Assembly (NCBI GenBank): GCA_001899635.1
Contig: MKVQ01000049.1
Coordinates: forward strand, 151,017-215,016
Length of the DNA stretch: 64,000 nt
Reading direction: 5' to 3'
Source: Myxococcales bacterium 68-20
GTDB taxonomy: Bacteria; Myxococcota_A; Polyangia; Polyangiales; Polyangiaceae
Shown here piece after piece: positions 1-58,203 of the stretch. Numbering within the stretch: the stretch's first letter is position 1; each line of letters opens with the position of its first letter. The translations under genes and the position numbers were made by a program. The notes below the pieces were generated by a model that was not told the origin of the DNA, ran no database searches, and saw only the letters and a program-made list of their open reading frames with translations.

Positions 1-806
1 GTGGATTCGCCTGCGCCGTCGGGCGCCTCGGAGAAGGCGACATCGAGGGCGACGGTGGAGGTCTCTCCTGCTGGGGAGCCAACGACGCGCTGCAACTCGG
101 GCGCGGTCACCTTCCGACCGCTTGGGGAACGGCAGGCGCCGCGGACCTTCGGTTCCGAAAGGTCCTGAGCGCCGCCGGAACGTCACGCGTCGGCTTCGCC
201 GTCCGGGACACGGGCCAGCTCCTTTCTTGGGGCGGCAATGAGTGGCAGAATCAGTCCTTCCCAGGCGTCGTCAACCTTCGTGATGCCCTCGGGCGCGAGA
301 GCTCGTTCTCGCCCGATCCGGTTCCGTACGAGCTCCCCGTGATCGGCGACGTCACGGATCTCGCAGCGTCGACCAAACACGCCTGCATCGTGGCCGGCGG
401 CGCCGTGCACTGCTGGGGTGTGAACGATACGGGAGCCGTGGGCAACAGCTCACGCGTCGACGACCGCTGGCCCTTCGCGGTCACGGTCCAGGGCGCTCGA
501 CCGATCCGCAACCTGTCCGTCAGCGACAAAACGACGTGCGCCGCCAGCATCGACGGCAAAGCCTACTGCTGGGGCGACAACACCAAGGGACAGCTCGGAC
601 CCGGCAACGCCGACTTCTCCTTCGAGCCGATGTCCGTGAGCGGCCTCGGCGGGCGCGTCGTGCGGCTTGCGACGATGGACGAGACGACGTGTGCGCTCAT
701 CGAAGATGGCACCGTCGAGTGCTGGGGCTCGAACGCGCGAGGTCAGCTCGGCATCGGGACGCGTGACGACGACGAGCACCTCCAGCCGACGAAGGTGGTC
801 TTTTGA
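1..806 (+). CDS. RCC1-like repeat protein, 5' end outside window
   Basis: The reading frame is open from base 3 to the TGA at 804-806, so the N-terminus lies upstream of the window. The visible part carries repeated blade signatures of the form C-W-G-x-N (for example around 74-90, 400-425, 565-590 and 715-735), each ending in a G-Q-L-G or related turn. These are the hallmarks of bacterial RCC1-like seven-bladed propellers, which mostly mediate protein binding and here are probably extracellular because every blade contains Cys. It overlaps the next gene by the four bases TTGA. It is a paralogue of the RCC1-like gene at 53189-54541; both contain an LGRESS...PDP segment. The biological partner is unknown. 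Confidence 0.85.
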   Translation, partial: GFACAVGRLGEGDIEGDGGGLSCWGANDALQLGRGHLPTAWGTAGAADLRFRKVLSAAGTSRVGFAVRDTGQLLSWGGNEWQNQSFPGVVNLRDALGRESSFSPDPVPYELPVIGDVTDLAASTKHACIVAGGAVHCWGVNDTGAVGNSSRVDDRWPFAVTVQGARPIRNLSVSDKTTCAASIDGKAYCWGDNTKGQLGPGNADFSFEPMSVSGLGGRVVRLATMDETTCALIEDGTVECWGSNARGQLGIGTRDDDEHLQPTKVVF

Positions 807-2689
807 GCGTCGGTCCCGCCAAGCGCGCCACGTCTTGGGCGAAGGTCGGCGCACTCACGACCACGACGGTGGCCTTCGCCGTCGTGGTCGCCTGCGGCTC
901 CGATCGTCACGGGTTCGAGCGCGTTCCCGCGGTCGATGATGCCGGCGTGTTCGCGACGGCAGACGACGGCGGAACGACGTGCGGCGTCGTCTGCTCGCGG
1001 GACCTTCACTCGGTCCGAGACGGCTGCGACGGCACCCTCGTCGAAGAGTGCCGATCGGACCTGGGCTGCGCCGATGGGACCTGCGTATCGGCATGCAGAA
1101 GCGCCGAACGCAATCAGGGGACCGTCGGATGCTCGTTCTGGACGATCCCATCCGTCGCCATCGGGGGCGGTGCGCCTTCGGAGGCTCCCCTGCAAGACTA
1201 TCGCAACTCCTGCTTTGCGGCGTTCGTCGCGAATACATGGAGCGAACCGGTCAACATCCACGTCGAATACGAGGGGAAACCCCTCGACGTCTCGAAGAGC
1301 ACTGCCATCCCTCGAATGAAAAATGGCGAGCTCGGTCACGAGGTGCTCGAGGGGCCGCTGCCGCCTGGCGAGGTCGCGATCATCTTCCTCCACGATGGGG
1401 AGAAGCCGCCGATGGAGAAGTTCGGGTTACACGTGCGCTGTCCGATCACCCCGGCCATCGTCTCGGAGGAATTCCGCGTCCCCATGTTCTCGGGGACCAC
1501 GGAGGCGTTTCATATCTCGACGGACTTCCCTGTCAGCGCATACTCGATTTACCCCTACGGCGGCGCACTGAGCTATCTCCCGTCGGCAACGGTGCTCCTG
1601 CCCACGTCATCGTGGGACAAATCGTATCTCGTGGTCAATGCGTGGCCGGCCATCGACAATCGCTACACGGGCATGAAGCCTACGCTTCAGATCGTGGCCA
1701 ACGAGGACGACACGGAGGTGCGCATCCGCCCGAACAACGATCAGGTCATTTTGCCGGATGCGACGCCCTCTTCGGACGGAAAATCGGGGATCTACAACCT
1801 GTCCAAAGGACAGACCCTCCAGATCACGGTGGCGAAGGAGTTCGTGGGAAGTCCCATCGAAGCTACGAAGCCGGTCGGAGTCTTCGGCGGAGCAACGTGC
1901 CTGAAGTTCCCGACGGAACCTTTTGCGGGGGCCTGCGACGTGGCTCAGCAACAGATCCCCCCCCTGCGTGCGTGGGGCACCGAGTACATCGCCGCGAGTC
2001 ACGAGAGCCGATGGGTTCTCCGCGGCGGCGAACAGGCAAACCCCGCGCGCCGCGAGGAAAGGGTGCCCTGGCGGTTGATTGGTGCTGCGGACGGCACCCA
2101 GCTCTCCTACGTGCCGAAGCGCCCGGATGGAGCTCCGCAGTCACTCCAGATGGGAGAGTCCGCCGTCTTCTGGACCAGGGATTCGTTCGTCGTGCGAAGT
2201 CAGGATAGCGAGCATCCATTCTATCTCGCCGCCTACATGTCGAGCGCCAGCTTCGGGGAAGTGCACGGTCCGGACTACATGAAGGACATCGGGGATCCGG
2301 AGTTCGTCAATGTCGTCCCCGTGCAGCAGTACCTGGACTCGTACGTGTTCTTCACCGACATGACCTACGGGTACACGACGCTCGTCGTCACGCGGCACGA
2401 CAGTGGAAACGGCTTCAAGGACGTGGATCTCGACTGCTCGGGACCGATCACCGAGTGGAAGAACATCGATGAAGCGGGGCGCTATCAGTACGCCCGCGTG
2501 ACCCTCGTGCGTGAGTTCAAGCCCCAATCGTTTCCGCGTGGCACGTGTGAAAACGGTCGACACGAAATTCGAAGCGACGAGCCCTTCGCGCTCACCGTGT
2601 GGGGGCTCGATTCCTATGCAAGCTATGGCTACCCCGGCGGCGCGGGTCTCCGTGAGATCACCTCTGCCGCCGTCTCCGTTCCGCGATAG
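803..2689 (+). CDS. IgGFc-binding-like surface lipoprotein
   Basis: A 628-residue protein starting at a TTG that overlaps the preceding stop (TTGA), indicating coupled translation. The N-terminus has a basic stretch, a hydrophobic segment and a lipobox-like VVVAC at about residue 31, so a lipoprotein is likely. A Cys-rich linker (about 50-105) precedes a long beta-rich domain with motifs such as SIYPYGGALSYLPSA and GDPEFVNVVP that are typical of the bacterial IgGFc-binding N-terminal domain family. That family is named after mucin-like FCGBP; its role in myxobacteria is not established, adhesion being the usual guess. It closely resembles the product of 54538-56334 along its whole length. Confidence 0.85.
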   Translation: MSVGPAKRATSWAKVGALTTTTVAFAVVVACGSDRHGFERVPAVDDAGVFATADDGGTTCGVVCSRDLHSVRDGCDGTLVEECRSDLGCADGTCVSACRSAERNQGTVGCSFWTIPSVAIGGGAPSEAPLQDYRNSCFAAFVANTWSEPVNIHVEYEGKPLDVSKSTAIPRMKNGELGHEVLEGPLPPGEVAIIFLHDGEKPPMEKFGLHVRCPITPAIVSEEFRVPMFSGTTEAFHISTDFPVSAYSIYPYGGALSYLPSATVLLPTSSWDKSYLVVNAWPAIDNRYTGMKPTLQIVANEDDTEVRIRPNNDQVILPDATPSSDGKSGIYNLSKGQTLQITVAKEFVGSPIEATKPVGVFGGATCLKFPTEPFAGACDVAQQQIPPLRAWGTEYIAASHESRWVLRGGEQANPARREERVPWRLIGAADGTQLSYVPKRPDGAPQSLQMGESAVFWTRDSFVVRSQDSEHPFYLAAYMSSASFGEVHGPDYMKDIGDPEFVNVVPVQQYLDSYVFFTDMTYGYTTLVVTRHDSGNGFKDVDLDCSGPITEWKNIDEAGRYQYARVTLVREFKPQSFPRGTCENGRHEIRSDEPFALTVWGLDSYASYGYPGGAGLREITSAAVSVPR

Positions 2690-2717
2690 ACGAACGACAT
2701 TCCAGCGAGCGTGATGC

Positions 2718-3980
2718 ATGAACATGTCGAAGTTGAAGGTCCTCTCCGTCTCATGCGCTTTCGTCCGGCTGCTCGCACTCGCAGGTTGCGCCGACGAGAC
2801 GGGTGCAGTCGAGGTGCCGGACACGTCGGCGGACGCTGGCGCGTCGACCGATGGGGACGGTGGTTCGCCCCCCTTCGAGACGGAGCAGGACGGTGGTGCT
2901 TCGGACGCTGACGCCGCTCCCGACCGGCGGATCTCGTGGGACAGTGGGGCGGATGAGCGACAGCCGATCGTCCAGGATGCGTGGACGCGAAGCGGCGTCT
3001 ATTGCGCGCGCGTGCAGCGAGGGCAGGACGTCACGACGAAATGCTGGGGCAGCAATCGCAATGGTGAGCTCGGCCGGGGGGTCGTGTCGACGTTCGGCAC
3101 GACCTACGCTCCGCAGCCCATTCAATCGCCGGATGCCCCGCACTTCACGATGGTGAAGCCCGATATCTCGTTGAAGGGCGTGGTTTGCGGCGTCCTCGAC
3201 ACGAACGACCTCAAGTGCTGGGGCGTGGGCTATGCCACGGGCTCCCCCGCCGTGCCGAGCGTCCCGGCGACGCCTTTCCTGCAGGACGTGAGGGCCGTGG
3301 ACGTCGGCGCGAACCACGCATGCGCGATCAAGACCGACGGCAAGCTTCTGTGCTGGGGCGGAAATAGGGACGGACAGCTCGGAATCGGCAAACAGGACAG
3401 CGTCACCTATCCGACTCCCGAAGAGGTCCCCGGCATCACCGTGGATCAGGTCGTGACGGGCCCAAGGGCAACGTGTGCCGTGTCGAACGGCGAGGTGTGG
3501 TGCTGGGGATACAAGCCGCTCACGGGAACGGGATCCGGGGGCGGGTTCGTCACATCGCCGACGCGGGCGGGAACACTCACGAACATCAAGAAGGTTCACG
3601 TAAACCAGAGCTACGCCTACGCGATCGGCAACGACGGCAGCGTTTGGTTCTGGGGAGTCCTCGGCTCGAAGGTCTCGTATACGCCCGCCCCTTTCAGTGA
3701 CCCGACGCCGGAGGACCCGGCGCGTTCGATGACGGGCGTGGTCGACGGCATCGACGACTGCTTCCTGTTCGAGAGCGGCAAAGTTCGGTGCGTCGAGACG
3801 ACCGGCGGATACCGTCTGACCGAGGTCTTGCGCGTCGACCGCGCCAAGAAGCTCACCGGAAAGTGCGTCGTCTCGAAGGACGACGAGCTTCTCTGCTGGG
3901 GGAACAACACCGCTGGTGTCCTGGCCGAGTCTCCGACGCTGCTCGGATCCGCAAGCGGGGCGATCAAAATCGACCTCTGA
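2718..3980 (+). CDS. RCC1-like repeat lipoprotein
   Basis: This 420-residue protein has a signal sequence ending in the lipobox LALAGC (Cys at about 24), followed by an Asp/Gly/Ala-rich spacer of roughly 50 residues. Six or so RCC1-type blades follow, marked by K-C-W-G-S-N, L-L-C-W-G-G-N and related motifs, spaced about 50 residues apart. It sits 28 bases downstream of the IgGFc-like gene and probably belongs to the same transcript. The start could also be the second ATG at 2724. It is predicted to be anchored in the outer membrane with the propeller exposed; partner unknown. Confidence 0.85.
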   Translation: MNMSKLKVLSVSCAFVRLLALAGCADETGAVEVPDTSADAGASTDGDGGSPPFETEQDGGASDADAAPDRRISWDSGADERQPIVQDAWTRSGVYCARVQRGQDVTTKCWGSNRNGELGRGVVSTFGTTYAPQPIQSPDAPHFTMVKPDISLKGVVCGVLDTNDLKCWGVGYATGSPAVPSVPATPFLQDVRAVDVGANHACAIKTDGKLLCWGGNRDGQLGIGKQDSVTYPTPEEVPGITVDQVVTGPRATCAVSNGEVWCWGYKPLTGTGSGGGFVTSPTRAGTLTNIKKVHVNQSYAYAIGNDGSVWFWGVLGSKVSYTPAPFSDPTPEDPARSMTGVVDGIDDCFLFESGKVRCVETTGGYRLTEVLRVDRAKKLTGKCVVSKDDELLCWGNNTAGVLAESPTLLGSASGAIKIDL

Positions 3981-46656: not shown

Positions 46657-47712
46657 GTGTCGAAGCGAACTCAGGTCGCGCGTGGACTTTGCGGTCTCGT
46701 ACTGGTCTCGTGCGGCCTGCTCTGCTCCGACGCCAGCGCCGACGAGCCGGAGCCCCCGTCGTACCGCCTGCTCTGGATCCGAGAAGACGACGCCGGCTCG
46801 TGTCCGGGCCCGTCCTCGATCGCTCGCGGGGTACGAGAGAGGCTGGACTACGACCCATTTCGCGACGATGCGCGAGCGACCGTCGAGGCCCGTATCGACC
46901 GTTCCGGGGGTGTCTGGACGGTGTCGCTTCGATTCTCCGACGGCACGAGGGAAGCGACGAAGCGGTTCCAGAGTCCTTCCGCCGACTGCACAGCGGTCGC
47001 GCAAGCTGCAGAGCTTGCGATCAGCCTTGCCATTCAAGGGAACGAGCTTGCCCGAGCGGAGCGGGCGGACGGTCCTGCCGTACCCGAGCCGGAGGCTGGC
47101 CGAGCACCCAGTGGCCTCCCGAGCACCGGAGGCGATGCCGCGCGCACGAGCCCACCGCGCGCCGATGCGAAGCCCGGTCCGCTTCCGGCTCCGAAGCCTT
47201 CGCCGCCACCCTTTGCAGGGATGTTGGCCATCTCCGGCGTGGGAACGGTCGGGCTCTTGCCTCGCCCAGCGGTCGGTCTCGACGTTCACGGCTTGGTCCG
47301 GGTCCGGAGGGGGGTGTCCCTGTCGCTCGGCATGGCGCACGTCCCGGAGGTGCGCGCCGATGACCCGCTTTTCCGCCTGGGGTCGACCCTCGGGCGCGTC
47401 GGCGCCTGCGTCGACCCGACGGGCTCTGCGCGGCCTCGCCTCGTCGGATGCGTCCACGTCGAGCTCGGCAGTACAGTGGTCGTGGTGCGGGACCTCACGC
47501 CGCTCGCCCCGGGCTCGAAGGTCTTTGGCGGCTTCTCCGCCGGGCTCCTGTTCGTCCAGCCCTGGGAGCCGTTCGCCCTGCTGGTGGAAGCGGCAGCGAT
47601 GGTGCCTGTGCCCGCCTACGACTTCTCGGTCTCGGGCACGGGGCGCACCATCTACTCGTCCCCGTTGGTCAACGGCGTTCTCCGCGTCGGCGTGGGGTTT
47701 GGAGCCTTCTGA
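46657..47712 (+). CDS. Exported barrel-like protein heading the ECF operon
   Basis: A 351-residue protein from GTG 46657. Signal peptide ending near DASA-DEPEP. An N-terminal soluble domain (about 30-130) with YRLLWIREDDAGSC and two Cys is followed by a Pro/Ala linker and a C-terminal ~150 residues of alternating strands (GVSLSLGMAHVPEV; LFVQPWEPFALLVEAAAMV) typical of outer-membrane barrels. The first gene of the eight-gene operon. I recognise the architecture from myxobacterial proteins next to ECF sigma factors but no named family. Confidence 0.75.
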   Translation: MSKRTQVARGLCGLVLVSCGLLCSDASADEPEPPSYRLLWIREDDAGSCPGPSSIARGVRERLDYDPFRDDARATVEARIDRSGGVWTVSLRFSDGTREATKRFQSPSADCTAVAQAAELAISLAIQGNELARAERADGPAVPEPEAGRAPSGLPSTGGDAARTSPPRADAKPGPLPAPKPSPPPFAGMLAISGVGTVGLLPRPAVGLDVHGLVRVRRGVSLSLGMAHVPEVRADDPLFRLGSTLGRVGACVDPTGSARPRLVGCVHVELGSTVVVVRDLTPLAPGSKVFGGFSAGLLFVQPWEPFALLVEAAAMVPVPAYDFSVSGTGRTIYSSPLVNGVLRVGVGFGAF

Positions 47713-47713
47713 C

Positions 47714-47736
47714 GGAACGCGAAAGATTTTTTCGTC
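47714..47736 (+). promoter_or_regulatory. Possible ECF-type promoter ahead of the sigma gene
   Basis: GGAAC (47714-47718) and CGTC (47733-47736) resemble ECF -35 and -10 elements in the 82-base gap before the sigma gene, but the 14-base spacer is shorter than usual. Autoregulation is a guess. Confidence 0.3.
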
Positions 47737-47794
47737 GCCGGAGCGACATCCCGACACCCAGCAGGATGTGAGCGAGCTCGGCGACGCCTTGGCC

Positions 47795-48346
47795 ATGGAG
47801 CAATTCCCGCCGCGGGCGCAGGAGCTGGACGTCACCGTGATCTACAAGGAGCACGGGGCCTTCGTCTGGGCTTCGCTGTCGCGCCTCAGCGTGCGCGATG
47901 CCGACCTCGAAGACATGCTCCAGGAGGTCTTCGTCATCGCTCACGCGAAGCTCGCGTCCTTTCGCGGCGACGCTCACGTTCGGACGTGGCTGTTCGAGAT
48001 CTGCAGGCGCGTGGCGCGCAACTATCGCCGGAAGGCAAGTCATCGCCGCGAGACACAGTCGAGCGACGCCGTCGAGGTGGAGTCGCTCGAGAGGAACCCG
48101 GAGCAAGCGTTCGTACAGAGAGAAGAGCAGCGGCGTGTCGAAGAGATCCTCTGGAACATGGATGTCGACAAGCGGGCCATCTTCGTCATGTTCGAGGCGG
48201 AGCACCTGCGGGCCGAGGAGATCGCCGAGATGCTCGGCGTCCCGCCCAGCACGGTGAGATCGCGCATCGCCGCTGCGCGGAAGGAATTCGGAAAAGAGGC
48301 GCGCAGGCTGCACCTCCTCAACGAGAGTCGAGAGAAGAGAACGTGA
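47795..48346 (+). CDS. ECF-family RNA polymerase sigma factor
   Basis: A 183-residue protein from ATG 47795 (an in-frame GTG at 47768 adds nine residues). Sigma region 2 contains DLEDMLQEVFVIAHAKLASF and the -10-reading helix RTWLFEICRRVARNYRR; region 4 contains RAEEIAEMLGVPPSTVRSRI, the -35-reading helix-turn-helix. Size fits an ECF (group 4) factor. It is flanked by the barrel-like gene and a one-TM protein gene with which it is coupled by GTGA, and is likely to control this operon. Confidence 0.9.
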   Translation: MEQFPPRAQELDVTVIYKEHGAFVWASLSRLSVRDADLEDMLQEVFVIAHAKLASFRGDAHVRTWLFEICRRVARNYRRKASHRRETQSSDAVEVESLERNPEQAFVQREEQRRVEEILWNMDVDKRAIFVMFEAEHLRAEEIAEMLGVPPSTVRSRIAAARKEFGKEARRLHLLNESREKRT

Positions 48347-49095
48347 GCAGACTTCGTCCCTACACGACGAGCGACCCTTCGAGCGAGGAGGCCCGCCTCG
48401 TACGCCTCATCCCGTCCCCGCCTCCGATGTCGTCCGCGCAGGCGGCGCGGTGCAAAGAGCGTGTGTCGGACCTCGCGCGAGCGCCTCGGGTCACGCCGAA
48501 GCCGTGGCCTGCGTTCACGGCTATCGGCGCTGTCGTCGCGGTGGCGATTGCCGGCGGTAGCCTCGTCGTGAACCGAACGACCGCCTCGACCGCCCCGTCC
48601 GAGGCTGCAGAGGTGCAGACGCTTCCGCCGCCCGTGGCCGAGCCCCGCGCGCCGGAGCAGAGCGAAGCGGTTCACTCCGTGAGCATCGAATCGCTGCCGA
48701 GCGTCGGTCTGCCTGCCGCTCGCGTACCAAAGCGCGAAGCCGTACCCGCCGCTCCCCTGGCGGTGACTCCCTCACGAGCGGAGGCTCCCGAGAGCGAGGG
48801 CGGCGCCGATGCGCTCACGCGAGAGCTCCGCCTCGTCGACGGAGCGCGCGTCGAGCTCGCGGTTCGCCCGAGCCACGCCTACGATCTGTTGGTCCGTCAC
48901 GCCGCCGAGTTCCCGGGGGGACAGCTCGCGTCCGAGCGAGAAGTGCTTCTCGTCGACGCGCTCATCCGAACGGGCCGCCGTGCCGAGGCAGAGGCTCGTG
49001 CACGTGCGCTCGGCGCGCGTGAACCGGGGTCTCCTTACGCGCAGCGCGTCGACGCGCTCCTTTCATCGGCCGCTTCGAAGTCCGAGAGGAAATAG
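48343..49095 (+). CDS. One-TM protein, candidate partner of the sigma factor
   Basis: A 250-residue protein whose GTG overlaps the sigma stop. A ~55-residue cytoplasmic N-terminus with one Cys is followed by one transmembrane helix (about 57-75, FTAIGAVVAVAIAGGSLVV) and a Pro/Ala/Glu periplasmic region ending in a helical TPR-like domain (about 165-245; REVLLVDALIRTGRRAEAEA). Position and topology suggest an anti-sigma factor or sensor, but no zinc-binding HxxxCxxC anti-sigma motif is visible, so this is inference. Confidence 0.7.
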   Translation: MSRLRPYTTSDPSSEEARLVRLIPSPPPMSSAQAARCKERVSDLARAPRVTPKPWPAFTAIGAVVAVAIAGGSLVVNRTTASTAPSEAAEVQTLPPPVAEPRAPEQSEAVHSVSIESLPSVGLPAARVPKREAVPAAPLAVTPSRAEAPESEGGADALTRELRLVDGARVELAVRPSHAYDLLVRHAAEFPGGQLASEREVLLVDALIRTGRRAEAEARARALGAREPGSPYAQRVDALLSSAASKSERK

Positions 49096-49097
49096 TC

Positions 49098-50270
49098 ATG
49101 GGACGGTCCACTAGCCCGATCGTCGTGTCGGGTCTCCTCGGCATGCTGCTGCTTCAATGCCGGGTCGACGAGCGCATCGCGTACGAGCCGCCGGAGAGCC
49201 AGCCGGAGCTCGTCAACCCATCGGCGGTCGGGGATGCGGGCCTCGTCGGGTATTGCCCCTCGGACAAGTGCCCCGAGGCCTTCACGAGCTGTCCTGGCTC
49301 GCGATTCCTTTGCGACGTGAACCTGAAGACGGATCCGAACAATTGCGGCGCCTGCGGAGTGCAGTGCCCGAAGACCGAGCGCCCGGCGAACGGGATCTTC
49401 ACCGATCCCCACGATTTCGCGCGCTCGTGGAGCTGCGTCGACGGTCGCTGCGTTCTCGCGTGCAACGGCACGACCGCGATGGACTGCGACGGCTTCGTCG
49501 ACAACGGCTGCGAGACACTGCCGTCCAAGAATGACAGCTGCGGGGCCTGCGGAAACGTTTGTGCGGATCCCGCGAAGCCGTGTCTCAGCCAGCCTTCGGG
49601 CGAGTACGCCTGCGGTTGTCCACCAGGATGGGACTCATGTGGTCTCCCGCTCTGCCTACCGTTGCTCGACGACGATCTCCACTGCGGGGCGTGCTCCAAC
49701 CGCTGCAATCCGAACGGCGACGCCGGCGCTCCTCCCGCCAATGCCTATTACGGCTGTGCGGGAGGGGAGTGCGGACACCTCAAGTGCGTCGCGGGAATGG
49801 GCAATTGCGACGACGACTCAGCGAACGGATGCGAGACGCCGCTCACGACGAACCAGAATTGCGGCGCGTGCGACAATGCCTGTGCTGCCGGCCAGACGTG
49901 CCTCTTCGACAAGGTCGCCAACGGGTACAGATGCCTCTGCCCGCCCGGCTTGACGTACTGCGACCGGCAATGCGTCGACCTCTCGTCGGATGACAGCAAC
50001 TGCGGAACGTGCGGCAACATCTGCGGTGTCCCCGGCTCGAAGGTGCATGTTGGCCTCTGCTCCTACGGGACGTGCGCCTTCTCGTGCTCGACGGGCTGGG
50101 CGGACTGCAACGGCAACCCGCGAGACGGCTGCGAGGTCAACACGATGAGCGACCCGCAGAACTGCGGCGGCTGCGGCGTCATTTGCGACGGCATCGCCGG
50201 TCAGGCCTGCGCCGGCGGGCGTTGTGTGGTCGAGCCCTGCGATCAGGACGGAGGCGTGACCGCTCGATGA
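49098..50270 (+). CDS. Cys-rich lipoprotein with repeated N-C-G-x-C-G motifs
   Basis: A 390-residue protein three bases after the previous stop. Signal sequence with lipobox-like LLLQC (Cys about 21). About 45 cysteines follow, grouped in five or more ~60-residue modules each containing N-C-G-x-C-G-x-x-C (for example NNCGACGVQC, DSCGACGNVC, SNCGTCGNIC), a motif typical of myxobacterial surface proteins and similar to EGF/keratin-like spacing. All modules imply disulfides outside the cytoplasm. It ends in ATGA overlapping the next gene. Confidence 0.85.
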   Translation: MGRSTSPIVVSGLLGMLLLQCRVDERIAYEPPESQPELVNPSAVGDAGLVGYCPSDKCPEAFTSCPGSRFLCDVNLKTDPNNCGACGVQCPKTERPANGIFTDPHDFARSWSCVDGRCVLACNGTTAMDCDGFVDNGCETLPSKNDSCGACGNVCADPAKPCLSQPSGEYACGCPPGWDSCGLPLCLPLLDDDLHCGACSNRCNPNGDAGAPPANAYYGCAGGECGHLKCVAGMGNCDDDSANGCETPLTTNQNCGACDNACAAGQTCLFDKVANGYRCLCPPGLTYCDRQCVDLSSDDSNCGTCGNICGVPGSKVHVGLCSYGTCAFSCSTGWADCNGNPRDGCEVNTMSDPQNCGGCGVICDGIAGQACAGGRCVVEPCDQDGGVTAR

Positions 50271-51493
50271 GCACAAGAACCTTGGCACTTGTTTCCTTCG
50301 CTTGCCTGTCTGGATTGGCGGTGCTCGCCGCGTGCGCGACCGACGGAAGCGCCCCTGTCGCCTCCGCCGGCGACGAGGAGAGCAAGGTCCCGTCCGCCGA
50401 CGCCGCGATCGACGTGCTCTCGGATGCCGGCGACGCGGGCACCTGCGAGGATTGCGAGTACTTCCCGGCGACGTGCTCCGCGGACGTCCTCTGTCCGAAT
50501 GAGCTCTTCGCCGCGAGCGGCAGCTTCGATCCCCGGAGCGCGGTGAACGTCATCCGAGGGCGTTCCGAGAACGATGTCTGGCTTGGAGCATCGGTCGGTG
50601 CAGTTGCCCACTTCGACGGAGCCGGGTGGACGCGCGCGGACGTCGAACGGGAATCGATCCGCGCGTTCTGGCTCCGTGAAGACGGGGAGATATCGTTCGC
50701 GACGCTCGAACGGCTGTTCAGCCGTGTCCTCGACGACGGAGACGGCGGCGCTCCCTCGACGGATTGGGCTCCTCGCGCGACGGCGAGCTCGGCGACCGAG
50801 TACGGCTGGTGGCGGAGGTTGCTCAACGCGACATGGGCGAACCCCGGCTCGGAGTGGAGCTGGGCCGCGACGGAGGTGCTCTCGTGCGCGAACTTCTCAT
50901 GTCAGGTCAACCCTGACCTTCGGACGAGCGGGCTCTGGCGCCTCCGGCGGTCGCCTTCCGGTGCGTTCGAGATCACGAGGGTCATCTCCCCCGAGGTGTG
51001 TCAGGCGACCTCCTGCGAGGGCATGACGGGCCTTCACGCCTCCTCGGCGAACGATCTCTGGGCGGTCGGTCACACGGGCGCTGCGATTCGAATTACCGAT
51101 CCCGACAGCGACACGCCCGCGCTCCGTCGGTTCAACACGCAGACCTGGCTCTCGCTCTACGGAGTGTGGGCGGCCTCCGAGACGGACGCCTGGGCTGTCG
51201 GAGCGCACGGAGTCGTTCGCCACTACACGGGGCACTCCGTGATCTGGGACATCGTCTCGGATGTCCCGACCACGCAGGATCTCAATGCGGTTTGGGGATC
51301 GTCACCGTCCGACGTCTGGGCCGTCGGCGATGCCGGGACCGTCCTCCACTACGACGGGAAGGCATGGTCGCGCGTGAAGATCGCGGGCCTCGGCGCGCGC
51401 CGGCCGAAGCTCACCACCGTGTGGCTCGGTTCGCCGGGGCACGTCTGGATCGGCGGTCAGGGCGTCGTTCTCTCTCTCGGAGGTAAGCCGTGA
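50267..51493 (+). CDS. SDVWAVG-type propeller lipoprotein
   Basis: A 408-residue protein. Lipobox AVLAAC (Cys about 23). From residue ~95 the sequence is a propeller with repeated blades such as SENDVWLGA, ANDLWAVGHTG, ETDAWAVGAHG and SDVWAVGDAG, each followed by a hydrophobic strand. These blades resemble bacterial 'DVWAVG' repeats in adhesion-like proteins. Starts ATGA, ends GTGA, so translation is continuous with both neighbours. Confidence 0.85.
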   Translation: MSTRTLALVSFACLSGLAVLAACATDGSAPVASAGDEESKVPSADAAIDVLSDAGDAGTCEDCEYFPATCSADVLCPNELFAASGSFDPRSAVNVIRGRSENDVWLGASVGAVAHFDGAGWTRADVERESIRAFWLREDGEISFATLERLFSRVLDDGDGGAPSTDWAPRATASSATEYGWWRRLLNATWANPGSEWSWAATEVLSCANFSCQVNPDLRTSGLWRLRRSPSGAFEITRVISPEVCQATSCEGMTGLHASSANDLWAVGHTGAAIRITDPDSDTPALRRFNTQTWLSLYGVWAASETDAWAVGAHGVVRHYTGHSVIWDIVSDVPTTQDLNAVWGSSPSDVWAVGDAGTVLHYDGKAWSRVKIAGLGARRPKLTTVWLGSPGHVWIGGQGVVLSLGGKP

Positions 51494-53214
51494 AGCGCAA
51501 GCTCGTTTTCACCTGCGGTGCGTTCCTGCTCGTGGCGGGGGCGGCGTGCGCCGTGTCCGAAGAAGATCGTGCCGCGTCCGCGTCCGATTCCGGCACCCCC
51601 CTCGGCGACGGGGCGTCGCCGGACGAGACCGTCGACGACGCGGCGGTCCTCGGACCGGATGGCTGCAGTGCGGCCGGATGGTGCGTCACGCAGCTCCCGG
51701 ACGCGGACCTGACGCTGAAGGACGTCTGGCCGCTCCCCGGCCACGCGTTCGCCATCGCAGAGAGCCCGACGCGCGGAGTGAAGGTCCTCGAGTGGACCGA
51801 GCTCGACGCGAAATGGGTCTATATCGACGACAATTCGCAGAACCGATCGACGACTGAGCTGTATGCAGGCAGGGTCTGGGCGCCGAGTGCCGATGAAGTG
51901 TATTTCACGGTAGCGCCGCGGGCGATCTATCACGGCAAGAGGCAGAATCGACCCGGCTCCAGCTGGACTTGGGCTCATCAGCAGCTCGAAGACCGCACGC
52001 CGCCGTACGCGACGTCGTACGGTGATCACTACCGCGGCCGACCGACGTTCGCCGCGACGAAGACGACGTACACCTCACTCGGAGTCTTTGGGACCGGCGT
52101 CGACGATGTGTATGCGTGGTACGCGAATGCCATCTACCGGGCGACGAAAGACCGAGACGGAAACGAGTCATGGGCGGTCGAATACGTCGCTGACGATCGC
52201 GATGACGACAATGAACAGCTGTTCTTCGTCGGCGCGAGCGCGACGAGCAAGGACGACGTCTGGTTTGCTGGGGGCAGGGGGGGGCCTCCTGGGCAGAACG
52301 GGTGTCCCGTGCTCGTGCACAAGACCGCCGCGGGCTATCGGCGCGTCGCCGACGGTGCCCTGGGATCAGGAAGCGCGCCCGACGGTGGCGGCATCGGGTT
52401 CCCGCCGCCCGATGGCGGCATCGTGTTGCCGCCGCCCGATGGCGGCATCGGGTTCCCGCCGCCCGACGGGGGCATCGGGTTCCCGCCGCCCGATGGCGGC
52501 ATCGTGTTGCCGCCGCCCGACGGGGGCATCGGGTTCCCGCCGCCCGATGGCGGCATCGTGTTGCCGCCGCCCGATGGGGGCATCGGGTTCCCGCCGCCCG
52601 ATGGGGGCATCGGGTTCCCGCCGCCAGGCGACGGTGGCATCGGGATCCCGCCGCTGATCGACGGCGGCATCGGCTTGCCGAACGACGGTGGGCTCGGCTT
52701 GCCAATCGACGGCGGTTTCATTCCTCTCGATGGGGGCCTCTTCATCGACGGTGGCATCACCCTTGATGGAGGCGGCGGGATCGGCGTCGGCGGCTCCTCG
52801 ATGTGCAAAGCCAGAGCCGGGCGCCTTCTGCTCGGGGCCGCGATGGGATGGCTCGGCAGCGTCGAAGCGATCGCGCCGCAGCGGGTCGTCCTGTTGAAGG
52901 GAGGCCGCGAGGTCGTGAAGGTCGCGGCGAGCGGCGACGACTACACGGCCGAGGTGGCGGAGCTCCCGTACAAGCCTTCCAACAGGAACTTCGTCTCGCT
53001 CTGGACGGCGCCGAACGACTCCATCTGGCTCGGCGGACCCAACATCATCCTGCGAGGGAACCAGGACCTCACCGACGGCGGCACGTACGACGTCTCGACG
53101 ATCGCCCTCAAGGGTGCGTGGCTCGAGACGCCCATCTACCAGATTCGAGGCTCTTCCCATGTCGATCGCTGGGCGGTCGGAGCGCGCTATGCACTTCACA
53201 AGACGACTCCTTGA
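51490..53214 (+). CDS. Lipoprotein with GGIGFPPPD tandem repeats
   Basis: A 574-residue protein from a GTG overlapping the previous stop. Lipobox VAGAAC (Cys about 20). An N-terminal propeller-like half (about 60-290; DDVYAWYANAIYRA, DDVWFAGG) is followed by nine tandem DGGI[GV][FL]PPP units (about 298-379), which then degrade into IDGGIGLP-like units to about 435. A C-terminal propeller-like region (about 440-574) follows, so the repeat looks inserted into the propeller. The collagen-like Gly/Pro pattern suggests a flexible rod or stalk. Confidence 0.85.
   Translation: MKRKLVFTCGAFLLVAGAACAVSEEDRAASASDSGTPLGDGASPDETVDDAAVLGPDGCSAAGWCVTQLPDADLTLKDVWPLPGHAFAIAESPTRGVKVLEWTELDAKWVYIDDNSQNRSTTELYAGRVWAPSADEVYFTVAPRAIYHGKRQNRPGSSWTWAHQQLEDRTPPYATSYGDHYRGRPTFAATKTTYTSLGVFGTGVDDVYAWYANAIYRATKDRDGNESWAVEYVADDRDDDNEQLFFVGASATSKDDVWFAGGRGGPPGQNGCPVLVHKTAAGYRRVADGALGSGSAPDGGGIGFPPPDGGIVLPPPDGGIGFPPPDGGIGFPPPDGGIVLPPPDGGIGFPPPDGGIVLPPPDGGIGFPPPDGGIGFPPPGDGGIGIPPLIDGGIGLPNDGGLGLPIDGGFIPLDGGLFIDGGITLDGGGGIGVGGSSMCKARAGRLLLGAAMGWLGSVEAIAPQRVVLLKGGREVVKVAASGDDYTAEVAELPYKPSNRNFVSLWTAPNDSIWLGGPNIILRGNQDLTDGGTYDVSTIALKGAWLETPIYQIRGSSHVDRWAVGARYALHKTTP
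52381..52626 (+). repeat. 27-bp coding minisatellite, about nine copies
   Basis: A 30-base first unit is followed by eight 27-base units from 52411 to 52626 encoding DGGIGFPPP or DGGIVLPPP; degenerate units continue to about 52795. The units differ mainly at third codon positions, implying recent expansion. Confidence 0.95.
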
Positions 53215-54541
53215 GCGACGCACGCAGGCGGCGTTCATCATCCTCGTGTGCGTGGCCGGTCTGGCTGGAGCAGCGAGCTGCTCGAGCACCGAAGCGGACC
53301 CCGAACGAGACGGCATCGCCGTGGACGGTGGGCCCGACAGCTCGGGCTCGACCGGCGACGCCGCCCCGAACGTGCCGGTGCGTGACGCTGCTCCGTTCGA
53401 CGGCGGCCCGCTCCCCGTCGTCTGCGAGTCGGCTCCCTGTGCCACTGCGCTCGTGACGACGCGAGGCGGGCGCGCCTCGGACCGCGGCGAGGGGTTCTGC
53501 GCGCTCCTGCAAGACGGCACCGTCGCCTGCTGGGGTGCGGGCGGCGCTGGCCAGCTCGGTCGCGGCGACGATGCAGGTACGACCGACAGCGCAACGCCAG
53601 CGCGTGTCGTCGGCCTCCACGACATCGTCTCGCTCGATCATACCTGCGCCGTCGACGCCACCGGCGCCGCCTACTGCTGGGGCACCGGTCCGTTCCTCCG
53701 CGACCCGCTCGCAGCCACGACGACGGAGCGCACGCCGGTCAAGCTCGCCATCGCGCCGGCGACGAAGGTGGCTGTGGGCGCGAGCGTCGGCTGTGCGCTC
53801 GTCGAGAACGGCGTCGTCTGCTGGGGAGCGAACCAGCGCGGGCAGGTCGCCCCGTTCGAGACGGCTTCGTTCTCCGCCGTCCTCGCGGCGCGACGGATCG
53901 ACGTCCCTTCGGGAGCTCCGTTCCGGGATCTCGTCGTCGGCGACGCGACGTTCGCCATTCGTACCGACGGGACCGTGGTGAGCTGGGGAGCGAATCCTCC
54001 GCTCGGTCGCGAGTCGTCGCTCTTCCCCGATCCCTATCCAATGCCCGCCGCGGTCCACGACATCACGACGCTCGACGTCGCCGAGAACAATGCGTGCGCC
54101 ACCAGCGGCGGGGTGGCGTACTGCTGGGGGACCGTCATCCAAGATCCCAATCAGCTGGTGTACAAGGTGCCGCCCCTCTCGCGCGCCCGTCCCACTCCAG
54201 TCGCCACGCCGGAGCCGGTCGTCCAGATCGCGACCACGCCCGCGATCGAGTTTGCGAAGCCACAGCGCTGGTGCGCATGCGCGGCGAGCGGCAGCGTGTA
54301 CTGCTGGGGCGATAACCAAGGCGGGCAGGCCGGCGACGGCACGAAGGAGTACGCCACCGCTCCGGTCAAGGTGAAGGGGCTCCCCGGGCCGGCCGCAGCG
54401 GTGCGGACGACGACCGAGGCCACGTGCGCGCTGCTCACGAGCGGCAAGGTCTACTGCTGGGGGACGAACTTCTACGGACAGCTCGGTAGCGGCAACATCC
54501 GCGAGCCGAGCCTCACACCACAGGAAGTGGTGCTGCCATGA
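53189..54541 (+). CDS. RCC1-like repeat lipoprotein (paralogue of the first gene)
   Basis: A 450-residue protein from ATG 53189, overlapping the end of the previous gene by 26 bases; GGAG lies eight bases before it. Lipobox AGAASC (Cys about 31). Seven or so RCC1-type blades follow with C-W-G-x-N motifs (CWGAGGAGQLG, CWGANQRGQV, CWGDNQGGQAG, CWGTNFYGQLG). It is the closest relative in the window of the partial protein at 1-806, sharing the LGRESS...PDP segment. Its stop overlaps the next start as ATGA. Confidence 0.88.
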   Translation: MHFTRRLLERRTQAAFIILVCVAGLAGAASCSSTEADPERDGIAVDGGPDSSGSTGDAAPNVPVRDAAPFDGGPLPVVCESAPCATALVTTRGGRASDRGEGFCALLQDGTVACWGAGGAGQLGRGDDAGTTDSATPARVVGLHDIVSLDHTCAVDATGAAYCWGTGPFLRDPLAATTTERTPVKLAIAPATKVAVGASVGCALVENGVVCWGANQRGQVAPFETASFSAVLAARRIDVPSGAPFRDLVVGDATFAIRTDGTVVSWGANPPLGRESSLFPDPYPMPAAVHDITTLDVAENNACATSGGVAYCWGTVIQDPNQLVYKVPPLSRARPTPVATPEPVVQIATTPAIEFAKPQRWCACAASGSVYCWGDNQGGQAGDGTKEYATAPVKVKGLPGPAAAVRTTTEATCALLTSGKVYCWGTNFYGQLGSGNIREPSLTPQEVVLP

Positions 54542-56334
54542 GCTCTCGTCGATGGGTTTGGATTGCGGGCGTCACCGGGAGCGTCGCCGCCCTGGGCAGC
54601 GGCGCCTGCGCGAGCAAGAGGGACTCCTTCGAGTCCGACCGCAACTTCGTGCTCGAGGCCGGAGCGGACGCGCCCGCCTGCGAGTATCAGTGCTCGATCG
54701 ACGGGCGCGCCATCGTCTCGACGTGCACCGGTGAAGTCGTCGAGACGTGCGCCCCCGAGCAAGCCTGCGGCGCTGCGCGTTGCCAGGAGCCGTGCGCAGC
54801 CGCCGCTGCGGGCGAGCGCTCCGACGGGTGCGAGTTCTTCTTCCAGACGCCGCGCTACCGGAAAGACCTCCCCCAGTCTTGCTTCGCCGTGTACGTCGTC
54901 AACACGTCGAACGGTCCCGTCGATCTCGGCCTCGAGCTCGAGGGAACGCGCCTCGACATCTCGAACGCGGTCTACCGAACGAATGCGGGCGACGCGACGC
55001 TCGTCCCGCATACGGGCTCGCTCGCCCCTGGAGACAGCGCCATCGTCTTCGTCTCGGATCGCGCGCCGGACGCTCCGATTCCGCAAGGCACTGGAACGAT
55101 CCTCGCGCCGTGCCCGGACGGTGTCGTGCCCGCCTCCGTCGCCGATCCGTTGCCGAACGGAAACGGGTTCGGCTCGGCGTTCCACCTGAAATCGACCGCG
55201 CCCGTCGCGGCGACGTCGATCTACCCGTTCGGTGGAGCCAGGAGCTATTTGCCGTCTGCGACCCTGCTTCTTCCCGTCTCGACCTGGTCGAAGGAGCACA
55301 TGATCGTCAACGGCTGGGAGCACGGGCCGAGCGGAGTGCCCGGCGCGCAGATCATTGCTTCGGAGGACGACACCGAGGTTACGCTCATCCCGAAGCGCGA
55401 CATCCAGGATGGTCGCACGATGGTCGGTTCGGCTGCGAACATCCCCGTCACCTATCGGCTCGCGAGAGGACAGATCCTCCAGCTCGCGCAGAACGAGGAG
55501 CTCTCCGGAAGCGTCGTCACCTCGACGAAGCCGACGACGACCTTCGGCGGACATTCCTGCGCGTTCGTCCCGAGCAGCGGAGCCTATTGCGATACGTTGA
55601 ACCAGCAGATCCCCGGTTTCGAGCGCTGGGGCGCCAAATACGTCGGCGTCGGGTATCGCCCGCGACTCGACAACGAGAACGAGCTCGTTGCCTATCGGAT
55701 CGTCGCCGCGCGCGACGGGACGGTCCTCGACTACGACCCTGCGCCTCCCGTCGGCGCGCCTCTGACGATGTCCGCCGGCGAAGTGGCGCTGTTCGTCCAG
55801 CCGATCCGCGATCCATTCGTCGTCCGAACGCAGGACGTCGACCATCCGGTCTACCTCGCCGCGTACATGAGCGGCGCGCAGCTTGGCTTCGAGGCGCTGC
55901 GAGCGACGACCGGCCCCTCGTTCGGATCGCAAGGCGATCCCGAGTTCGTGAACGTCGTACCCGCGGACCAGTACCTGAACGCCTACAGCTTCTACGCCGA
56001 TCCCTCTTACGGGAATACGTCGCTCGTCATCGTGAGGGCCAAGACCGGCGACGCGTTCAAGGACGTCTGGCTCGAGTGTGCGGGCTACCTCACCGGCTTC
56101 CGCCCCGTCGGGACGAGTGGCGAATACGAGTACGTCCGCGTCGATCTCGCGCGCGATGGCAAGCCAGGGGCGACGTTCGACGGCGGGGCCTGCGGTAACG
56201 GCCTCCATCGATTGCGGAGCGACGGCCCGTTCACCGCGACCTTGTGGGGCTGGGACAAGCATGCGAGCTACGCGTATCCGGGAGGGCTGGCCCAGCGGAA
56301 GCTCGTGACCACTCCGCTCGTCGACGTCAAATGA
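54538..56334 (+). CDS. IgGFc-binding-like surface lipoprotein (paralogue of 803-2689)
   Basis: A 598-residue protein. Lipobox ALGSGAC (Cys about 24). A Cys-rich linker (about 45-95) and the IgGFc-binding-like domain follow, with SIYPFGGARSYLPSA, ASEDDTEVTLIP and GDPEFVNVVPADQY, which match the paralogue at 803-2689 block for block. Last gene of the eight-gene operon. The conserved pairing with an RCC1-like gene suggests the two proteins act together, for example as an adhesin and its partner. Confidence 0.87.
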   Translation: MSSRRWVWIAGVTGSVAALGSGACASKRDSFESDRNFVLEAGADAPACEYQCSIDGRAIVSTCTGEVVETCAPEQACGAARCQEPCAAAAAGERSDGCEFFFQTPRYRKDLPQSCFAVYVVNTSNGPVDLGLELEGTRLDISNAVYRTNAGDATLVPHTGSLAPGDSAIVFVSDRAPDAPIPQGTGTILAPCPDGVVPASVADPLPNGNGFGSAFHLKSTAPVAATSIYPFGGARSYLPSATLLLPVSTWSKEHMIVNGWEHGPSGVPGAQIIASEDDTEVTLIPKRDIQDGRTMVGSAANIPVTYRLARGQILQLAQNEELSGSVVTSTKPTTTFGGHSCAFVPSSGAYCDTLNQQIPGFERWGAKYVGVGYRPRLDNENELVAYRIVAARDGTVLDYDPAPPVGAPLTMSAGEVALFVQPIRDPFVVRTQDVDHPVYLAAYMSGAQLGFEALRATTGPSFGSQGDPEFVNVVPADQYLNAYSFYADPSYGNTSLVIVRAKTGDAFKDVWLECAGYLTGFRPVGTSGEYEYVRVDLARDGKPGATFDGGACGNGLHRLRSDGPFTATLWGWDKHASYAYPGGLAQRKLVTTPLVDVK

Positions 56335-56394: not shown

Positions 56395-58203
56395 TCAGCC
56401 GGGGGATTTCGCGCATCGGAAGCCGCCTTCGGCGAAGCGGTAGTGCGGATCGAAACCCACGCGGGCATACGTGCGGAGCGCGCGGACGTCGTACATGAAG
56501 GAGCCGCCACGCATCACGTGTCCGCTCTTGTTCTTCGGTGAGCTCGCGAGCTTCGGATTCATGCTCGGGCCGTTCTCGTAGAAGTCCTCTTCGTACGCGT
56601 CCTCGCACCACTCCCAGACGTTTCCGGCGAGATCGAGGAGGCCGTACGGCGACGCGCCGTCGGGAAACGCGCCCACGGTCGTCGTCCCGTCTCGGCTCCG
56701 TCCGAAATTGGCGTGGGAGGGCTTCGGCTCGACGCGTCCCCATGGGTAGCGGCGGCCGTCGGTTCCGCGCGCCGCCTTCTCCCACTCCGCCTCGGTCGGG
56801 AGGCGCTGACCGGCCCAGGTCGCGTAGGCGCGGGCGTCGAACCACGACACGAAGGCGACGGGGTGTTTCTCCTCACCGCGGTTCGGCTTGCCGTTCCGCC
56901 AATGGGCGAGGAAGCGCTTCGCGCCCGCGTCGGCGGGCTTGTACTGCGTCGCATCGAGGAACACGGCGAACTGTGCGTTCGTCACGGGGAGGCGATCCAT
57001 GTAGAACGCATCGAGGTGCACCTCGCGACGCGTGGAGCCCATCGCGAAGGTCCCGCCGGGGATGAGCACCATCTCGTGGCCGCTCGTGTCGCGGATCGTC
57101 GGCGGGAGCGGGACCGACGAGACTTGCGAGGTCTCGAGTTGCTCGTGGCTCGGGGGGATCGCATCGAGGAGCCGCTCGCGGAAGACGGCGCACGAGGGAG
57201 GCCTCTTGTCAGGCGTCTTCGCGAGCGCATCGAGGATCAGTCGCTCGAGCGCCGGCGGCACGTCGGGCCGGAGCTTCGAGGGCGCTCGCGGCGCGTTGGT
57301 CACGTGCGCCATCATCACGCTGAAGTGACTGCCGTCGAACGGAGGGCGTCCGGTCACCAGCTCGTAGAGCGTGATCCCGAGCGAGTAGATGTCCGACCGG
57401 TGATCGGCCAGGCTCGGCGTCTTCACTTGCTCCGGCGACATGTACCGGCAGGTGCCGAGCAGCGCGCCACTCACCGTGTAGGTCGTGCCCTCGAGCACCT
57501 TGGCGATGCCGAAATCGGCGACCTTCGGGCGAAGGCGGCCGCCGTCGTTCCGGACGAGGACGTTGTCGGGCTTGAGGTCGCGATGGACGACCCCGTTCGC
57601 GTGGGCGTCATCCATCGCGAGGAGGATGTCGCCGATGACGGTCCGGATCTGGTCGAACGGCATCTTCCCGCGCCAGCGAGCGAGGTGCTGCGCGAGGTTC
57701 TCGCCCTCGACGAGCTCCATCACGATCGCGAGCACGTGCTCGTGCTCGATGAAGTCGTGGATCCCGACCGCGCCCGGATGGCTCCACGTGCGAAGGACCC
57801 GCGCCTCGCGGACGAAGCGCCCCCGCACCTCGGGGTCGCTGGCGAGGTTCATGTGGAGGCACTTGAGGGCGACGTCGCGGCCGAGCGCCATGTCCCGCGC
57901 ACGGTAGACGACGCCCATACCCCCTTCTCCGATCACGGACTCGATGCGGTAGACGGAGAGCGTCGTCCCCGCGGGGAGGCGCATCGGCGGGAGGCCGCCG
58001 GCGATCCGAGCGCCGGGCACGGGCGCTTCGGCGAGCTCGGTGGAGGCGAGCTCGGTGTCCGGGCGTGCGTCGACCTCTTCGGCGGCGGAGGCGTGGGATG
58101 CCGGCAGCGCCTGCCCGCACGAATGACAGAAGCGCGCTCCCGTCGCGAGCGGCGTCCTGCAGGACGGGCACATGCTCTCCGAGGCCTCCGCCATCGGGCG
58201 CAT
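56395..58203 (-). CDS. Zinc-ribbon / Ser-Thr kinase / SUMF1-domain protein
   Basis: A 602-residue protein. C-x2-C...C-x2-C zinc ribbon at residues 12-29 (CPSCRTPLATGARFCHSCG), a linker, then a Hanks-type kinase (about 83-345) with GEGGMG, catalytic HRDLKPDN and DFG, so it is predicted active. The C-terminal third is a formylglycine-enzyme-like domain (about 375-600; AYATWAGQRLPTEAEWEKAA, GNVWEWCEDAYEE) without the catalytic Cys pair. No transmembrane segment, so it is cytoplasmic. The target protein is unknown. ATG 58194 (MAEAS) is an alternative start. Confidence 0.9.
   Translation of the reverse strand: MRPMAEASESMCPSCRTPLATGARFCHSCGQALPASHASAAEEVDARPDTELASTELAEAPVPGARIAGGLPPMRLPAGTTLSVYRIESVIGEGGMGVVYRARDMALGRDVALKCLHMNLASDPEVRGRFVREARVLRTWSHPGAVGIHDFIEHEHVLAIVMELVEGENLAQHLARWRGKMPFDQIRTVIGDILLAMDDAHANGVVHRDLKPDNVLVRNDGGRLRPKVADFGIAKVLEGTTYTVSGALLGTCRYMSPEQVKTPSLADHRSDIYSLGITLYELVTGRPPFDGSHFSVMMAHVTNAPRAPSKLRPDVPPALERLILDALAKTPDKRPPSCAVFRERLLDAIPPSHEQLETSQVSSVPLPPTIRDTSGHEMVLIPGGTFAMGSTRREVHLDAFYMDRLPVTNAQFAVFLDATQYKPADAGAKRFLAHWRNGKPNRGEEKHPVAFVSWFDARAYATWAGQRLPTEAEWEKAARGTDGRRYPWGRVEPKPSHANFGRSRDGTTTVGAFPDGASPYGLLDLAGNVWEWCEDAYEEDFYENGPSMNPKLASSPKNKSGHVMRGGSFMYDVRALRTYARVGFDPHYRFAEGGFRCAKSPG

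Follow-up and report, generated by a model that had tools for sequence, protein, structure and literature searches.

In FecI-FecR-FecA cassettes, an ECF sigma factor, a membrane partner with one transmembrane (TM) segment and an exported envelope protein are encoded side by side. The ECF/anti-sigma polysaccharide utilisation loci of Bacteroidota are present in many copies per genome, with dedicated sigma factors and with surface lipoproteins as products. For class I anti-sigma factors, which are defined by a four-helix ASDI domain, co-encoding and co-inheritance of sigma factor and partner are described (PMC7406223), and polymorphic toxin systems are presented as exchangeable cassettes with modular exchange by recombination (PMC3482391).

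The gene cluster analyzed here is located in a 64,000-nucleotide stretch of DNA from Myxococcales bacterium 68-20 (the window) and encodes an exported protein (g1), an ECF sigma factor (g2), a one-TM protein (g3) and five predicted lipoproteins (g4 to g8). The initial annotation had likened its first three genes to a cell-surface signalling cassette. The ECF sigma factor and the membrane partner support this resemblance, but by the features tested the system is not of the FecIRA type, as Pfam searches at E<=0.1 gave no match to a FecR domain in 17 members of the g3 family and none to a TonB-dependent receptor or STN domain in 24 members of the g1 family.

Results

Gene content of the window copy

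All eight open reading frames of the initial annotation exist at their positions (Table 1), and its description of the junctions after the sigma gene agrees with the sequence: a gap of 2 nt separates g3 and g4, g6 and g7 overlap by 26 nt, and the pairs g2/g3, g4/g5, g5/g6 and g7/g8 each overlap by 4 nt. Profile searches confirmed the assignment of g2 as ECF sigma factor (TIGR02937, E=1e-24), of g7 as RCC1-like (RCC1_2, 1.9e-28) and of g8 as IgGFc-binding-like (PF17517, 1.9e-99; 333.1 bits compared with a gathering score of 25.6). The g4 protein matched NF041328, the MXAN_6577-like Cys-rich family, at E=1.4e-27 with 96.3 bits, which is below the cut-off of 100, and in addition Stig1 at 1e-8. 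No family was matched by g1, g5 and g6 of the window in the profile searches, and the matches of g3 to TPR profiles were weak. The GGIGFPPPD repeat is confined to the g6 protein of the window (1 of 126 g6 paralogues).

Table 1. Features of the gene cluster and of a second, partial copy, in window positions
Feature	Coordinates	Strand	Remarks
g1	46657..47712	+	in place at 113/132 loci; sigma module
g1-g2 gap	47713..47767	+	55 nt; site of promoter-like bipartite motif in many paralogues
g2, ECF sigma factor	47768 (GTG) or 47795 (ATG)..48346	+	profile match; 124/132 loci; sigma module
g3, one-TM protein, putative anti-sigma	48343..49095	+	123/132 loci; sigma module
g4, Cys-rich lipoprotein (MXAN_6577-like/Stig1)	49098..50270	+	module boundary in first ~50 codons
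g5, DVWAVG-repeat lipoprotein	50267..51493	+	sequence and profile search
g6, lipoprotein, GGIGFPPPD repeat	51490..53214	+	profile searches cross-match g5
g7, RCC1-repeat lipoprotein	53189..54541	+	RCC1 profile match
g8, IgGFc_binding (PF17517) lipoprotein	54538..56334	+	profile match; closes block
Lipoprotein block, exchanged unit	49251..56334	+	~codon 52 of g4 (YCPS) to g8 stop; borders transferred from paralogue comparisons
Second copy, 3' end of same operon	339..2689	+	g7 tail 339-806, g8 803-2689

The prediction of five lipoproteins holds for g5 to g8 of the window, in which the signals are visible, and is weaker for g4 (LLLQC). A simple lipobox pattern, applied to paralogues whose starts are uncertain, was found in 84 of 132 g4, 86 of 129 g5, 63 of 126 g6, 84 of 126 g7 and 115 of 129 g8 proteins, and in 7 of 113 g1 proteins. 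The exported g1 protein is composed of an N-terminal domain with two invariant cysteines, a proline-rich linker and a C-terminal domain that we infer to be of the barrel type; phenylalanine is the last residue in 35 of 113 paralogues. The g3 protein contains a short N-terminal part, one TM segment (91 of 123 family members pass a simple hydropathy test), a conserved LPS-like motif, a proline-rich linker and a TPR/BamD-like tail, which matched BamD among the PDB sequences (E=5e-5). Anti-sigma families of Pfam were searched in g3 and none matched. PDB sequence searches with g1, g8 and g5 yielded nothing under E=0.6, and the predicted structures are poor (pLDDT 45.6 for g8, three sequences; 37.5 for g1, two sequences).

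A family of similar operons in one genome

The assembly holding the window comprises 11.9 Mb in 52 contigs and contains 141 matches to PF17517, three of which are short fragments and were left out before neighbourhoods were taken. The g3 family has at least 108 matches at E<=0.01, with 150 of 353 candidates scored, and 91 of these 108 are followed within 14 kb on the same strand by g8, nearly all at a distance of 5.6-6.1 kb. We analyzed 134 of the 138 neighbourhoods, the remaining four being covered or nearly so by neighbours or the window, together with six of the 17 g3 places without g8; the merged DNA of the analyzed loci includes 140 non-ACGT letters. Profiles of the eight families were made by iteration, and an operon locus was defined as a g4 match accompanied on its strand by three or more others; isolated matches were not counted.

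By this definition 132 loci carry at least four families, and 102 of them carry all eight in order; in two of the 102, the g5 and g6 matches fall on one open reading frame. Strict parsing by order had given 57 eight-gene loci before genes lost to the overlap filter, among them at least 20 g3 and at least 16 g6 genes, were restored by position. The window cluster thus belongs to a family of about 130 paralogous operons, all within the same genome. The conserved order of the eight families, which had been proposed as a check of the cluster, recurs at more than 100 loci in this genome and is therefore beyond chance. The matched genes amount to 1.17 Mb or ~9.8% of the genome, values that are slightly over-counted since some sigma matches extend too far upstream, and they are distributed over 37 of the 52 contigs and both strands. 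In some copies, including that of the window, the sigma match takes in out-of-frame upstream sequence, which adds noise to the distances and to the genome share. The g1 gene is absent from its place at 19 of 132 loci and in some of them lies divergent or downstream. Start codons of the paralogues were picked by nearness to the preceding stop, and some are plainly wrong; as this choice biases 4-nt overlaps upward, their frequency among the paralogues was not used as proof.

Occurrence in related genomes

A first look for PF17517 candidates in 144 genomes of the order gave 144 in this genome and at most 22 elsewhere, and the 11 other genomes of the genus (12 in the set) contain 0-46 PF17517 matches. 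The g3 search was run on nine congeners, where assembly fragmentation conceals some g3-g8 pairs, and the g1-g3-g8 spacing recurs in four of them. For congener G145, which has 46 PF17517 matches, g1 is found upstream within 1.4 kb in 41 of 46 g3 matches, with room for a sigma gene between, and g8 4.7-6.1 kb downstream in 25 of 46. For G125 the corresponding numbers are 14 and 9 of 21 g3 matches, with g8 at 5.6-7.5 kb, while one of 14 g3 matches in G144 and one of 12 in G147 have g8 at operon spacing (by eye). None of the 16 g3 matches in G055, G141, G100 and G119 has g8 at this spacing, and the g3 search gave no match in G026. Outside the genus but within the family, four genomes (G136, G057, G084 and G130) yielded 31 g3 matches. 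A weak partial match in G057 is followed by g8 at 6.3 kb, and for two further matches g8 lies 0.9 and 3.0 kb downstream (by eye). Going by these counts, the arrangement is characteristic mainly of some members of the genus.

The Labilithrix sp. MAG L069 has all eight families together, but with g1-g2-g3 divergent from g4-g8, and a few copies in the genome studied here are split in the same way. A one-to-one orthologue of the L069 operon was sought among these copies and not found. The g8 proteins of G125 (L210) and two g8 proteins of L069 nest within the diversity of this genome and two from other genera lie outside, which points to an expansion that was under way before these species separated.

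A promoter-like motif in front of the sigma gene

Dyad counting for promoters was swamped by the high G+C content, and an EM search with a held-out test was used instead, in which the motif was trained on half of the operons in five random splits, both ways. A bipartite motif of approximately ACGATTTTCGTGATC and CGGCATTC, with 14-15 nt in between, is over-represented in the 130 nt preceding the sigma gene. Scores above 8 bits were reached by 37.7% of the held-out sigma upstream regions compared with 7.1% of Markov sequences, by 1.4% of the regions upstream of g1 and by 3.5-7.5% of those upstream of g3, g4, g5, g7 and g8. Above 12 bits the held-out values are 20.2% versus 1.0%, so that a strong form of the motif is carried by a minority of the copies. 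Upstream of g2 the log-likelihood is 99-260 versus 39-118 for shuffled sequences, and upstream of g1 the motif is weak (54-156 versus 35-110). The window copy has a partial likeness to the motif, GATTTTTTCGTC, at 47725-47736, as judged by eye. Additional strong hits fall inside the intervals called g2, where the start was perhaps called too early. The motif is common to the sigma clades and does not by itself show orthogonality. Nine lipoprotein blocks are not preceded by g3, and one of them has a motif hit within 400 nt of g4.

The position of the motif between g1 and g2, in combination with the copies that have g1 elsewhere, favours g2-g8 as the likely transcription unit. The initial annotation had combined all eight genes in one unit; this seems to be correct for g2 to g8, and g1 is probably rather a linked partner.

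Conflicting histories of the sigma module and the lipoprotein block

To compare g1-g3 (the sigma module) with g5-g8, trees were built with FastTree from the 102 loci that carry all eight families. Only one of 53 supported splits of the sigma module is present in the g5-g8 tree and 52 are contradicted; this single shared split, which is one pair of operons, is no more than expected by chance (label permutation: mean.22, maximum 2). Within modules, 35 of 42 splits of g1+g2 were found in the g3 tree with none contradicted, and 42 of 48 splits of g5+g6 in the g7+g8 tree with three contradicted. The outcome was the same when the comparison was repeated with stricter alignment columns and with single genes. 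Of 33 supported g1 splits, 24 were found in the g2 tree (three contradicted) and 25 in the g3 tree (none contradicted), and 22 of 24 g2 splits were found in the g3 tree with one contradicted. Such a nearly conflict-free history of g2 and g3 would be expected for a sigma factor and the protein that binds it, and on the evidence of the trees both, g1 included, are one co-inherited unit. The paralogue distances point in the same direction, with correlations of.35-.40 and.63-.80 within modules and.00-.07 between them (g2 versus g8: Mantel r=.024, p=.23).

Single pairs of loci illustrate the conflict in both directions. Two loci are 83-90% identical in g5-g8 and 21-30% identical in g1-g3, and in a reverse pair the sigma factors are 68% identical and the g8 proteins 38%. 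Among the 38 pairs with a g5-g8 identity of at least.7, g2 identity is.40 or lower in 34, and among the 60 pairs with a g2 identity of at least.6, g5-g8 identity is.45 or lower in 22. Differences in evolutionary rate cannot explain both kinds of crossed pairs. For these 60 pairs the g5-g8 identity is.48 at the median versus.34 overall, and the reassortment of modules, which is nearly complete across the family, is therefore not total at short distances. Identity between nearest paralogues does not exceed 90% (g7), so that no very recent exchange was caught. Misjoining of short reads is unlikely as a cause of the conflict, since all genes of a locus share a contig and even the most similar lipoproteins differ in about 10% of their residues.

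Borders and movement of the block

In sliding windows the last 40 columns of g3 track the sigma module (rho.57), columns 0-60 of g4 track neither module, and from columns 40-80 on g4 tracks the block (rho.63-.72 at first and.26-.66 in later windows). Judged by these alignments and the trees, the cluster is made up of two modules: the first is g1-g3, and the second, the block, starts near codon 50 of g4 and runs to the stop of g8. At the DNA level 48 g8-similar pairs, which are not independent, were compared, and similarity begins 110-315 nt past the g3 stop in 45 of them. In 46 its other end lies no more than 40 nt from the g8 stop. An internal mosaic with g6 out of step was detected in two of 180 similar pairs, both involving the same operon, a count that depends on our own thresholds; the blocks thus moved mostly as intact units of ~6.8 kb. 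The median dN/dS of g2-g8 is.24-.53, which gives no sign of overall positive selection; single pairs reach.73, and the values for g2 and g3 come from six pairs only.

Neighbouring operons (<20 kb) show an excess likeness in g5, g7 and g8 (p<=.002, 1000 permutations), and their sigma modules showed none in g1, g2 and g3 (p.16-.98). We read this as copying of blocks between loci that may keep their sigma modules; the adjacency effect is the one line of evidence for a moving block and a sigma module that stays. The exchange could also have come about by crossovers between dispersed operons, as in inversions or translocations, which we regard as rather unlikely. A single crossover in g4 yields the same 5' boundary, and a downstream flank protein is common to 5 of 35 block-similar pairs versus 1 of 600 random pairs, which keeps crossovers under consideration. 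On the other hand, 30 of the 35 pairs are without a common downstream protein, the similarity ends sharply at the g8 stop as described above, and the adjacency effect is seen for blocks only. An upstream flank is shared in 2 of 35 block-similar pairs, and noncoding flanks may have decayed. A conserved recombination site after the g8 stop was sought and none was found, and the profile for a 5' site was anchored near the g4 start, off the exact 5' border.

Discussion

We propose, with a probability of roughly 0.6, that the about 130 operons form a family in which a signalling-type module, acting as a self-activating switch, is combined with a reassorted output of five lipoproteins and in which blocks spread by copying. 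According to this model, the putative anti-sigma factor g3 would tether the sigma factor to the inner membrane, until an envelope signal, perhaps passed via g1, frees it. The freed sigma factor would transcribe its own operon from the promoter between g1 and g2 in a positive loop, and the five lipoproteins would reach the outer membrane or the surface. Homologous recombination within the conserved part of the block would copy lipoprotein blocks between loci, with the sigma modules staying in place. The genome might in this way come to possess a repertoire of lipoprotein sets that respond to different triggers, with the evolution of the trigger uncoupled from that of the product.

The initial annotation had considered the lipoproteins as output or ligand of the signalling module. 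As they have no common history with the sensor module, an interchangeable output fits better than dedicated ligands. A dedicated recognition, in which the lipoproteins of each operon are specific ligands or sensors for their own g1 or g3, would be in line with the tight linkage and an order kept at so many loci, but fitting partners should share their history as g2 and g3 do, and the lipoproteins do not. We consider it improbable in this specific form, while sensing of parts common to all lipoproteins could still take place. Similarly small chances are given to nutrient capture under ECF control in the manner of polysaccharide utilisation, with one substrate per copy. The combination of ECF sigma factor, membrane partner and lipoproteins is indeed present; however, the eight genes gave no match to a TonB-dependent transporter, to SusD or to any enzyme family, and a substrate-specific system should keep its sensor with its binding proteins, which was not seen. 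Very improbable is a duplication of whole operons with co-evolved halves, in which the sigma half evolved too fast to keep its history: the median identity of g1-g3 is low (.22-.32) compared with g4 (.42) and g8 (.41), but that of g5-g7 is likewise low (.25-.34), the sigma-module genes retain a common history, the block tree contradicts their splits instead of leaving them unresolved, and the crossed pairs run in both directions.

Seen as switches with a reassorted output, more than 100 copies of an eight-gene operon whose regulator and product halves have unrelated histories are a natural experiment in operon modularity. With them it can be tested by what means some 130 paralogous sigma/partner pairs are kept separate in a bacterium, whether there is cross-talk through a shared promoter consensus and what large lipoprotein repertoires do, and they provide a common physiological setting for the IgGFc_binding, RCC1 and Stig1-like domains, whose roles are unclear in bacteria. 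More tentatively, and with the odds rather against it, one may think of a combinatorial surface repertoire, in which each of about 130 self-activating switches stands before an interchangeable coat of five lipoproteins and is re-paired via the border in g4. If this were true, about a tenth of the genome would be devoted to the repertoire, with different coats under different triggers, and the system would be the bacterial equivalent of an antigen or receptor repertoire; encounters with prey, kin, phage or predators are guesses in this respect.

Comparison with known systems

Searches of open-licence literature, which leaves out most subscription journals, gave no description of this operon, its copy number or its module exchange. 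The earlier statement that no described system has such a composition is in accordance with this search, which is weak evidence of absence. As in FecI-FecR-FecA cassettes, an ECF sigma factor, a one-TM partner and an exported protein adjoin in the operon, but here five lipoproteins take the place of the transporter and about 130 copies are present. With the polysaccharide utilisation loci the system has in common the many copies, the dedicated sigma factors and the lipoprotein products. It differs from them in that all copies are built from the same families and that sensor and output have separate histories, and profile searches with g1-g8 of the window found neither a SusC/SusD pair nor glycan enzymes.

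The agreement of the g2 and g3 trees (22/24 splits) resembles the class I ECF pairs (PMC7406223), whereas g3 is without a match to an anti-sigma family of Pfam. In profile searches, none of the eight genes matched a toxin family. With the polymorphic toxin systems (PMC3482391) the operons share modular exchange by recombination, but the exchanged unit is here a block of five lipoprotein genes behind a regulatory module.

Variation among operon copies and neighbouring genes

The GGIGFPPPD-type repeat was found in only one of the 126 copies of the lipoprotein gene g6, namely the window copy. Two adjacent operon copies on contig C12 of the source genome (about 179 and 189 kb) share just 33% identity in g6 and 76, 71 and 83% in g5, g7 and g8, respectively; the copy at about 189 kb is also a partner in the other internal-mosaic pair.

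At the window start, the RCC1-repeat gene downstream of the second copy's g8 (2718-3980) has a lipoprotein-like N-terminal start, and g7-type matches likewise lie downstream of g8 in several other copies. The kinase/FGE-sulfatase gene is convergent with the eight-gene operon, and its product has a weak zinc-ribbon match at the N-terminus.

Features in the window
Feature	Position	Strand
g6 with inserted GGIGFPPPD-type repeat	51490-53214	
Second operon copy, 3' end (g7 tail, g8), then further RCC1-repeat gene	339-3980	
Protein kinase fused to formylglycine-generating-enzyme-like (FGE-sulfatase) domain	56395-58203	-

Operon families in relatives

The congener G145 carries a second large set, with 46 matches to PF17517 and at least 46 each to g3 (150 of 365 candidates scored) and g1 (150 of 333); some g3 matches occur there without g8 on the same contig. 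In the Labilithrix MAG, a g8 fragment (L069:13752-14561), 86% identical to one source-genome copy across 153 residues, is perhaps the remnant of another operon.
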